From contig NZ_WBJR01000003.1 of NCBI RefSeq assembly GCF_009296185.1, forward strand, positions 310,001 through 374,000: a stretch of 64,000 nucleotides of DNA. Reading direction: 5' to 3'. Position 1 is the first letter of the stretch; each line of letters begins with the position of its first letter. Source of the DNA: Hydrogenovibrio sp. JE_KL2. GTDB taxonomy: Bacteria > Pseudomonadota > Gammaproteobacteria > Thiomicrospirales > Thiomicrospiraceae. Made by a program: the position numbers and the translations under genes. Under the pieces are notes generated by a model, which did no database searches, was not told where the DNA came from, and was given only the letters and a program-made list of their open reading frames with translations. Shown here in pieces: positions 59,616 to 64,000 of the stretch.

Positions 59616-62600
59616 ATGCGTGATTGGTTTTATAGAATCTCTCTGATTGTTGTAGGGATTTTTGTTGCCTATTTACTTGTGATGAGAGCATTCATTACCT
59701 GGGTTCAATATGCGCCAGATACGGCGATTTCTTTTGTTGAAACCGTCACGCAATCACAAATTCATGTTGATTCTATTCAAGCCGATCAAAACTGGTTGGG
59801 GGCTGACTTTCAAATCAATGGTTTGAAATATGATGATGCCACCACTCATCTTGCCTTACAGAAGCTTTCCGGTGATGTGAATATTTTTGCTCCTTGGATT
59901 CCGCAGTTGAAGTATGGACACCACTTGGAGCTGAGTGGTTTGACCGTTTTGCTAAGTGGTGGAACCGACACAACCGTTAGTGATGTGAATTGGCAAAACT
60001 TCCCGGAGCATGTTAAACGTTGGCGTTTACAGAAACTGTGGAAATCTATCAAGGTAGACAATGCGCAATTGACCTTCAATCAAGCCAAACCCTTTACGGT
60101 TGATGTAAAGCTGTTTCAGTCATTTTTTGGGCTGAGGTGGTCTTTCGTCGGTTTGCTGGAGATAATGACAGGCCAAAAGGTCGCCAATGAAGTGCAGGTC
60201 AAGGGGGATTTTTCTACCAATCTATGGAATGTGCCCGAGGAAGGGGAAGGTTCCGTTTCTATCTTAAAACCGATCAGCTTGGATGATGTCTATCATTTTG
60301 CTTCTACAAAGGTTACAGCTAAGCTCCCTAAGGGCGAAATGGTTGGTGATATTAAGTTCCGACTTCAAGCCGGACGTCTAAAACGTTTAAGAACTTATTT
60401 GACGATACAAGACTTAAGTTGGCCTGCACATGATCGCTTATTACCAAAAAGTATTGGTGTCACCTTAAGATTGAGATCTAAGGCCGACTTTATTACCGGA
60501 TCCTTCGTTGACTGGGTTTTTGAGCTCGAAAAATTGCGCTTTGATGATCAATATGTCCAGACGATTTCCCCCGTTTACTTCAGTTTGACTCAAAACCAGA
60601 ACTTGTCGTTTTCAGCTGAAAAATTCAAACTCCATGAGATCAAGCCGTTGTTTGATGTGGTTTTGCATAGCATTGAGTACCAAGGTGTTGGTAAAGAATT
60701 GAAGTCTTTGGAGTTGAAACAATTGAGTGGTGTGTTCAATTTTAAAACGGCTTCTTTGTCAAAGCTTAGCTTTCAATTGCCGTCTATCAAACTTGAGCCT
60801 CAAGAAGGCATTCCCGGGTTAACGATTAGTCGCCTTAGTTTTAACAAAGATCATGGCAAGGTACAAATTCGAATTTTAGATCCGGTGGCATTGTTGTCCA
60901 AGTACATCAAGCCGGAGCCCATCAAGTTTACGTTTGCTAAACCTATTCAGTTGACCGTTGGTCAGAGAGGGGAAGGTCAATGGTCTTTAGATAAAGTCAA
61001 CTTCACCATGGATGACATGCCCGCAACCCTGGTTGCTTCCAGCTTGCCAGAGGGAGGGGTGGATGCGACGGCAACGATTGTGCCTGGCACTGTCGAAAAA
61101 GTGAAAGCATACCTTCCGTACAGCATTATGTCCAAGCCATTGGAACATTGGTTGAAATCTGCACTCGTTAGTGGAGATGACGTTCATGGCATAGCTCACT
61201 TTAAGGGGAAGCTGGAGAATTTTCCATTTAAAAAATCTCCAGGTTTTTTTAAAGCCGAAGCTTTTGTTCAAAATACGGAGCTGAAATTCCAACCGGATTG
61301 GCCTTCAGTAAAAGACTTTGCGGCCAAGCTTGAGTTCACGCCGTATGATCTTAAGATCACATCCACTAAAGCAAAACTAATGGATGTGGATGCATCAAAT
61401 GTCGAAGTGAATATCAATAACCTGGACAGTAAAAATATCGCGGTTGATATCTCCGGTAATGCCGATGCCGATGCGCAGGATGCGCTCAACTTTATAAATA
61501 ATACGCCATTAACTGGAAAGTTGGGCCTCAAAGCGTTTCTTGATTCTCAATTGGTTGCGCAGGGTGCAGTACATGTTGGATTGAAAAAAATCTGGGTGCC
61601 GGTTTATGGATTTGGCAAAAAGTCTGAGGCAGTGAATGGTAGTGTTTCGTTGTCGGATGTGAATGCCAAATTGTTTGATGTGATTGATTTACAAAAACTG
61701 AACGGCAAACTCAACTTTACCGAGTCCAAAGTAGAGTCCGTTAAGCCTATTTCAGGGCAAGCGATGGGGGGTAATTTGACCCTTGATGTGCAAACCCAGA
61801 AAGAACGGGTTTTGCTTCAATCCCATGGTGATGCAGTGTTAAACAATCAGTACTTGCAAGGTCCGTTGCCATGGACGACGCAGGTTGTGATTCCGTTGAA
61901 AAAAACAGAACCTGTCAAAGTGGTTACAAACGCCAGTCTAGAAAAAGTGAAGAGTTTGTTGCCGAGTCCGATGGAAACCTTTGTTGCAACAGCAGATCAT
62001 AAAAAGTCATGTCAATTAGATTTGACTGTTCAGAAACAAATGGTGAAGGTCAAAGGGATTGTCGCGGGCAATGCTAAATTCTATGCAGACTGGGATACTG
62101 ATAAATCAACGCCTAAGAATTTGAGGCTGGTATTGGGCGGTAAGTCTGAAGGCTTTCCTGCGCCAATAAAGGGATATCGTGTACATGGAGAAGTCCCTTC
62201 TCTTGATGTAGATGGGTGGAATGACTTATTGTCGAATACCGCAAGGTCTACTAAGCCTTCGGATGTGGTTGTGTGGCAGGCATCTGACTTAAAGGTCAAT
62301 AAGCTTGTTTTAGGCGGGCATGATTTTCACCACGTTAATATGAACTGGGATTCCGTTAAACGTCCGAGTCAAAAAGAAAAATTCCTCGCGTTCAATCTTA
62401 AAGCTGATGAAACGGCTTTGGTGATGACTAAATCCGACTCAGATGCCTTTAATGTTGACCTTACTTTTTTGAAATTAAAAACTAAAAAACAAAATGAAGG
62501 AAAAGATAAAAAAGTGGCTACGGATTTAGCGCCTATTGCTGATAAGTCTGGTGCTGAACCAAAGTGCGCAATTCACGAGAATCCGATTAACTTACCGAGG

Positions 62601-63464
62601 ATTCATTTTACGGGGACAAATATTGAAGTAAATGATCGCTTGGTTTCAAAGTTAAGTTTTGATTTGTCGGATAGTGATAAAGAAATCGTATTGTCGAAGT
62701 TAAGTGCAGATTTCTCGAGATTACATACCGTGTTATCCGGGGAGTATCGTTTCGATAAGCAAGCAAACTTAAGTTCTTTGGATGGCAATATTCATGCCTC
62801 TAATGTCGAACAGTTATCCAATTTGTTAGGTGTCAAAAAAGGCTTTACTGGTAAAGATGGTCGATTAGCAATGAAAGTGACATGGGCGGGCGCCTATGAC
62901 TGTTACTCACCAATTACGATAAAAGGCACGATAGACTTCTCGTTAAAAAATGGTGTCATTGTTAATGCGGAGCCTGGCATTGCAAGGGTGCTAGGATTGC
63001 TAAGTTTTGATTCACTAGCACGTCGGTTGAAGTTGGATGTGTCCGATGTTACGGATAAAGGGCTGGCTTATGACAGCATAAAAGGAAATGGTCAATTTAA
63101 TAGAGGTGTGTTTGATTTAGAAAAGCTTGAACTTAAAGCACCTGCTGCTTCTGCTAATGTATTCGGGCAGATAAACCTGATTCAAAAAGATATGTCGCTT
63201 AAAGCGGACATTACACCTGCTATTGGTGAAAGCATTCCTGCGCTGGTCGCATTAAGTGGAGCGGCAAATCCACTTGCCGGTTTAGCCGCTTATGCCTTTT
63301 TAAAAGTGGTTCCGATGGTGAATGATGATTTGGTTACATACCGTTATGAAGTCTCAGGAACCTTCGATAAACCCGTTATTAAAGAAAAAGGGTTGAACTT
63401 GGATTTACTGAAGCTAAAAAGTAAGCCAACCAATAAAGAAGATCTAATCTTGGAAAGTCAATAA
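59616..63464 (+). CDS. yhdP: YhdP, AsmA-like envelope protein
   Basis: A 1282-residue protein with one N-terminal helix (LIVVGIFVAYLLVMRAF) and a very long periplasmic beta-rich body ending in an AsmA-type C-terminal region (NAEPGIARVLGLLSFDSLAR near residue 1120). Size and domain layout match E. coli YhdP, which bridges the inner and outer membranes and helps move phospholipids outward with TamB and YdbH. A Lys-rich insertion near residue 950 may be lineage-specific. The order rng-yhdP is conserved. Confidence 0.9.
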   Translation: MRDWFYRISLIVVGIFVAYLLVMRAFITWVQYAPDTAISFVETVTQSQIHVDSIQADQNWLGADFQINGLKYDDATTHLALQKLSGDVNIFAPWIPQLKYGHHLELSGLTVLLSGGTDTTVSDVNWQNFPEHVKRWRLQKLWKSIKVDNAQLTFNQAKPFTVDVKLFQSFFGLRWSFVGLLEIMTGQKVANEVQVKGDFSTNLWNVPEEGEGSVSILKPISLDDVYHFASTKVTAKLPKGEMVGDIKFRLQAGRLKRLRTYLTIQDLSWPAHDRLLPKSIGVTLRLRSKADFITGSFVDWVFELEKLRFDDQYVQTISPVYFSLTQNQNLSFSAEKFKLHEIKPLFDVVLHSIEYQGVGKELKSLELKQLSGVFNFKTASLSKLSFQLPSIKLEPQEGIPGLTISRLSFNKDHGKVQIRILDPVALLSKYIKPEPIKFTFAKPIQLTVGQRGEGQWSLDKVNFTMDDMPATLVASSLPEGGVDATATIVPGTVEKVKAYLPYSIMSKPLEHWLKSALVSGDDVHGIAHFKGKLENFPFKKSPGFFKAEAFVQNTELKFQPDWPSVKDFAAKLEFTPYDLKITSTKAKLMDVDASNVEVNINNLDSKNIAVDISGNADADAQDALNFINNTPLTGKLGLKAFLDSQLVAQGAVHVGLKKIWVPVYGFGKKSEAVNGSVSLSDVNAKLFDVIDLQKLNGKLNFTESKVESVKPISGQAMGGNLTLDVQTQKERVLLQSHGDAVLNNQYLQGPLPWTTQVVIPLKKTEPVKVVTNASLEKVKSLLPSPMETFVATADHKKSCQLDLTVQKQMVKVKGIVAGNAKFYADWDTDKSTPKNLRLVLGGKSEGFPAPIKGYRVHGEVPSLDVDGWNDLLSNTARSTKPSDVVVWQASDLKVNKLVLGGHDFHHVNMNWDSVKRPSQKEKFLAFNLKADETALVMTKSDSDAFNVDLTFLKLKTKKQNEGKDKKVATDLAPIADKSGAEPKCAIHENPINLPRIHFTGTNIEVNDRLVSKLSFDLSDSDKEIVLSKLSADFSRLHTVLSGEYRFDKQANLSSLDGNIHASNVEQLSNLLGVKKGFTGKDGRLAMKVTWAGAYDCYSPITIKGTIDFSLKNGVIVNAEPGIARVLGLLSFDSLARRLKLDVSDVTDKGLAYDSIKGNGQFNRGVFDLEKLELKAPAASANVFGQINLIQKDMSLKADITPAIGESIPALVALSGAANPLAGLAAYAFLKVVPMVNDDLVTYRYEVSGTFDKPVIKEKGLNLDLLKLKSKPTNKEDLILESQ

Positions 63465-63500
63465 AAACAATGGCTTGAAGTTTCTTGGCGCCGGTTTATA

Positions 63501-63559
63501 GAAAAAAAATAACTTTTTTTATAAATTTGGGTTGCAAAACCAATAGGAATGTTTAAAAT
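63501..63559 (+). promoter_or_regulatory. rRNA promoter with UP element
   Basis: A/T tracts at 63501-63527 resemble an UP element. TTGCAA (63532-63537) and TAAAAT (63554-63559) follow with 16-base spacing, giving a strong stable-RNA promoter 211 bases before the 16S sequence. Confidence 0.75.
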
Positions 63560-63600
63560 ACGCATCTCTTTCGGACGACAAGCTAGTTTTTTGGGAGAGA

Positions 63601-63649
63601 GGCAAGGATCTTTATAAGATGTTTTTGCCGGACTTAGTTCTTTAAAAAT
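63601..63649 (+). promoter_or_regulatory. rRNA leader hairpin and boxA-like antiterminator
   Basis: GGCAAGG-ATCTT pairs with AAGAT-TTTGCC-type sequence (63601-63629), a boxB-like hairpin, and is followed by GTTCTTTAAAAAT (63637-63649), close to the boxA sequence of rRNA leaders. These recruit the NusB-S10 antitermination complex. Confidence 0.7.
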
Positions 63650-63770
63650 CAGGTAATACAGAGATAATTTATGTGGGAGCTACTTAAGTGAGTAGTTGCT
63701 AAAAACATAAATATCTCGACAACTATGTATATGGTTAATTGTTGAATACTTAGGTATTTAATAATACATG

Positions 63771-64000
63771 ACGGTAACAGAAGAAAGCTTGCTTTCTTGC
63801 TGACGAGTGGCGGACGGGTGAGTAATGTATGGGAATCTGCCCTCTAGTTGGGGACAACATATGGAAACGTATGCTAATACCGAATGTGATCTACGGATTA
63901 AAGGTGCCCTCTCCTTGGAAGGTATCGCTAGAGGATGAGCCCATATTAGATTAGCTAGTTGGTGGGGTAAAGGCCTACCAAGGCGACGATCTATAGCTGG
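63771..64000 (+). rRNA. rrs: 16S rRNA, 5' end missing, right end off window
   Basis: From ACGGTAACAG at 63771 the sequence follows bacterial 16S rRNA, corresponding to about E. coli position 66 onward. GACGAGTGGCGGACGGGTGA, then the helix 6 region and GGCGACGATCTATAGCTGG at the window end are clear. The first roughly 65 bases, including the universal AGAGTTTGATC segment, are not found upstream; the leader is joined to AT-rich DNA instead. This part holds the central pseudoknot strand, so the copy as given should not be functional. Confidence 0.9.

Follow-up and report, generated by a model that had tools for sequence, protein, structure and literature searches.

The window analysed here, a stretch of 64,000 nucleotides, corresponds to G000:C8:310001-374000, that is, to part of contig C8 of a 15-contig, 2.44-Mb draft (G000) rated 100% complete. 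Its right-hand end holds the start of an rRNA (rrn) operon, which we compared with all three operons of G011, the closest relative, and all three of G003, both genomes being of the same genus and closed or nearly closed. The features that concern us are as follows.

59616-63464, + strand: upstream protein-coding gene (1282 aa), part of the operon's unique left flank
63465-63621, + strand: operon-specific (unique) promoter region, 'TTGCAAAACC...TAAAATACGC' and its surroundings, aligning over its full length to operon 1 of G011
63622-63770, + strand: rRNA leader common to the operons, exactly 149 bases long, with a boxA-like AGTTCTTTAAAAATCAGG and the 5' arm of the 16S processing stem
63653-63690, + strand: the 5' arm of the RNase III-type stem that encloses the 16S
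63770-63771, + strand: junction at which 133 bases are absent without microhomology, from alignment to the G011 and G003 operons
63771-64000, continuing past the window, + strand: 16S rRNA gene from E. coli position 66 onward

The product of the upstream gene is presumably a YhdP/AsmA-type envelope protein. The end of this gene and the promoter region align to operon 1 of G011; the end of the ORF adjoins the orthologous rrn operon in G003 as well as in G011. Beyond the window edge, a normal 16S 3' end is followed by tRNA-Ile, tRNA-Ala and a 23S gene that is cut.

The alignment bears out the sequence-only reading in that 16S homology begins at E. coli position 66, which is window position 63771, and that the promoter-like region and the boxA-like leader look normal; the RNase III-type processing stem is present too. 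The region from AGAGTTTGATC to CTGGCGGC, including the 27F primer site, is indeed missing, both at the locus and in the assembly contigs other than C3-C7, C14 and C15 (hereafter, the searched contigs). The bases upstream of the junction had been described as unrelated AT-rich DNA, which is wrong: the stretch ending TAATACATG is a normal rrn leader, as in the G011 ortholog, and the 157 bases leftward of the junction are identical to the orthologous operon of that genome. The loss had also been sized incompletely, because the 65 bases of the 16S are gone together with 68 bases of the leader. Measured against the three operons of G011, the gap thus consists of the last 68 leader bases and 16S positions 1-65, 133 bases in all, and measured against the three operons of G003 it is 134 bases. 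In comparison with all six relative operons, normal sequence is recognisable on both sides of the gap, the window matching leader through 63770 and 16S beyond that point. In a homology search of 37 relatives the region falls into two separate matches in the closest genomes.

The assembled junction reads TAATACATG-ACGGTAACAG, whereas the normal leader continues TAATACATG-TACCTTG... No microhomology was found at the breakpoints: the left side ends ...ACATG, the deleted segment runs TACC...GTCGA and the right side begins ACGG, with no base in common at either edge. Neither a short direct repeat nor a mobile element, which are usual though not obligatory at a real deletion, is present there. The searched contigs contain no copy of the relative's 133-base segment and no site matching the 27F pattern with up to three mismatches, a site that was found in 20 of 38 genomes searched, among them all single-contig genomes of the genus. 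An exact-pattern scan of the named genome collection for the same junction gave no match, and a search of the plasmid collection returned generic 16S matches only.

Apart from its start, the 16S gene appears ordinary. The bacterial SSU rRNA model (RF00177) matches C8:373712-375249 with 1449.6 bits, and its segment 1-65, with the 27F site and the 5' strands of h1-h3, is absent at the locus. This match seemingly runs from model position 1; the leader bases are forced onto the missing ~65 positions and do not represent a true 5' end. Reading the upstream AT-rich bases as a diverged 16S 5' end, on the strength of that weak alignment, was rejected, since they are normal leader in the relatives. Mature 16S usually starts AAACTGAAGAGTTTGATC. 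The 16S body shows 6 differences from that of G011 over 1490 bases, and from 63771 to the contig end identity to G011 is 99.1% over 3731 aligned positions. The gene retains AGCGTTATTC, the partner of the missing helix 3 strand, which is GAATGAACGCT in this genus and AGCGTTAATC in E. coli (helix assignments as generally known), and the h2-partner region and the anti-Shine-Dalgarno sequence are intact. The 5' arm of the processing stem in the leader pairs with a 3' arm just past the 16S (core G000:C8:375279-375306), and the two arms fold at -52.8 kcal/mol with a z of -12.4. Judged by its sequence, then, the gene is undamaged beyond the gap and remains complementary to the absent segment.

At the contig end (C8:377500; region G000:C8:377197-377500) the 23S gene is cut near position 1648 of the 2925 in its model, and despite the 100% completeness rating the searched contigs do not contain its 3' half. 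They hold a single 16S and lack both a complete 23S and a 27F site. The flanks nevertheless show that the genome has three rrn operons, whose 5' flanks lie on C8 (the present locus), at the start of C2 and at the end of C11, and whose 3' flanks lie at the start of C8, the end of C9 and the end of C12. Five of these six flanks sit at contig ends, and a single partial 16S-23S copy was assembled for the three operons.

The way in which the contigs end is uniform. The start of C2 and the end of C11, 5' flanks of the other two operons, have exactly 149 bases in common, and so do the three 3' flanks at the start of C8 and the ends of C9 and C12. A duplicated tuf gene behaves in the same manner, with 149 bases shared between contig ends at both of its ends. 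Breakage with a constant overlap at a multi-copy repeat with unique flanks is therefore seen in four sets of contig ends, always with 149 bases, and an overlap of this kind at every repeat-bounded contig end is the mark of a k-mer-graph assembler. From the point at which operon 1 diverges from operons 2 and 3 (63622) to the junction (63770) the distance is again 149 bases. Position 63770, lying 149 bases into the common leader, is thus the point where the contig carrying the unique flank should have stopped.

A model of such an assembly also predicts the collapsed nodes that should remain. For the tuf gene it predicts a node of 1186 nt (G011 stretch L095, positions 313-1498), and for the 5' flank of the other two operons a node of 149 + 78 + 149 = 376 nt, which ends at the counterpart of 63770. 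Two contigs have these lengths, C14 with 1186 bases and C5 with 376, the correspondence being one of size alone and not of sequence. They belong to seven small contigs (C3-C7, C14 and C15) that span 312-1186 bases; the other five, of 698, 411, 337, 312 and 1033 bases, may hold the missing rRNA pieces. In G011, a single base, 80 bases ahead of the junction, distinguishes the leader of operon 1 from those of operons 2 and 3, and for this reason the exact 149-base repeat at the present locus is deduced from homology and contig sizes rather than seen directly. The 376-base contig is independent support for that repeat.

We are highly confident that the missing 16S start reflects an assembly misjoin over an ordinary operon and not unusual biology. 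A k-mer-graph assembler would have collapsed the three near-identical rRNA operons, and the contig with the operon's unique left flank would have ended one overlap (149 bases) into the common leader, at 63770. At that point a scaffolding or gap-merging step, whose involvement we infer, would then have attached, at the wrong offset, 3730 bases of collapsed rRNA sequence (a contig or graph piece reaching from 16S position 66 to mid-23S), and the join would have been made without overlap or Ns, so that 133 bases were dropped. The 3730 bases after the junction do look like such a collapsed-operon piece, which itself ends inside the 23S. The misjoin is supported by the single 16S and the lack of a complete 23S and of a 27F site, given that a living cell must possess a complete 16S 5' end and a 23S. 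It is further supported by the intact 16S body, partner strands and processing stem, by a junction free of microhomology and by the occurrence of the predicted 1186- and 376-base nodes as contigs. Very probably, leader and 5' end are normal in the real gene, which would then encode an ordinary 16S, central pseudoknot included. The 133-base gap, the 149-base signature, the three operons and the incomplete 23S are observed, and from them we infer that reads would reveal the normal segment at the junction.

The sequence-only reading had left three options side by side, a broken operon copy, a rearranged active copy and an assembly error. The last is favoured by the position of the junction at the overlap boundary, by the presence of three operons with one partial copy and by the breaking off of the 23S, whereas a broken copy needs a coincidence. 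As a real event, it would be a 133-base deletion in one of the three rRNA operons, with the dead 16S tolerated and two intact copies unassembled. With three operons present, a cell could survive losing one 16S copy, and nothing else is abnormal in the flanking sequence on either side. However, the edge of the deletion would have to fall by chance 149 bases into the common leader, the same 149 as at all other repeat boundaries, and the junction lacks microhomology. The 16S shows no decay elsewhere, with the 6 differences noted above; a long-dead copy should drift, although a recently deleted one would not. With a true deletion, moreover, the unique contig would be expected to merge with the other copies only ~149 bases beyond the junction, and the observed extension is 3730 bases, ending inside the 23S. 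We consider such a deletion highly improbable, and a shade more so its consequence, namely that removal of the leader end and of 16S 1-65 in one operon gives a transcribed and processed but non-functional 16S. A rearranged active 16S, its 5' domain drawn from the upstream AT-rich sequence or from a separately encoded fragment, can be dismissed almost entirely: the Rfam model can align the leader over positions 1-65 through a weak likeness that is due to chance, but the adjoining bases are the ordinary leader of the relatives, in which they precede the normal 5' segment, the searched contigs contain no other copy of that segment, and its partner strands are unchanged.

That rDNA repeats are hard to assemble from short reads is well documented and is addressed by riboSeed (PMC6009695). 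The present case resembles the collapsed or misjoined rrn operons of short-read assemblies (riboSeed, PMC6009695) in its multiple copies, unique flanks at contig ends, single partial copy and wrong join inside the operon. Unlike the usual collapsed operons of short-read drafts, it has a join with neither an N run nor an overlap, and it therefore appears as a clean 133-base deletion. The locus shares with the intact operons of G011 and G003 the same leader, processing stem, 16S and 23S and, for operon 1, an orthologous upstream gene, and it differs from them in the 133 bases (134 in G003) that those operons possess.

The result matters mainly for quality control. In a 16S extracted from this assembly, leader sequence would stand where the first 65 bases belong, and the species would falsely appear unamplifiable when the 27F primer is tested in silico. 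An odd junction lying one k-mer overlap inside a repeat offers a cheap general test for false deletions.

Contig ends of another kind were also noticed. At the start of C1 (G000:C1:1-212, stretch L058) a 36-base unit, GCCGCCCGAAGGGGTAAGGCGAGAAACGAAGCACTC, is repeated perfectly 3.7 times, and a related unit of 39 bases comes next. The start of C12 is the reverse complement of the 36-base array, the two forming an exact dovetail of 134 bases. C1 and C12 probably join across this tandem array.
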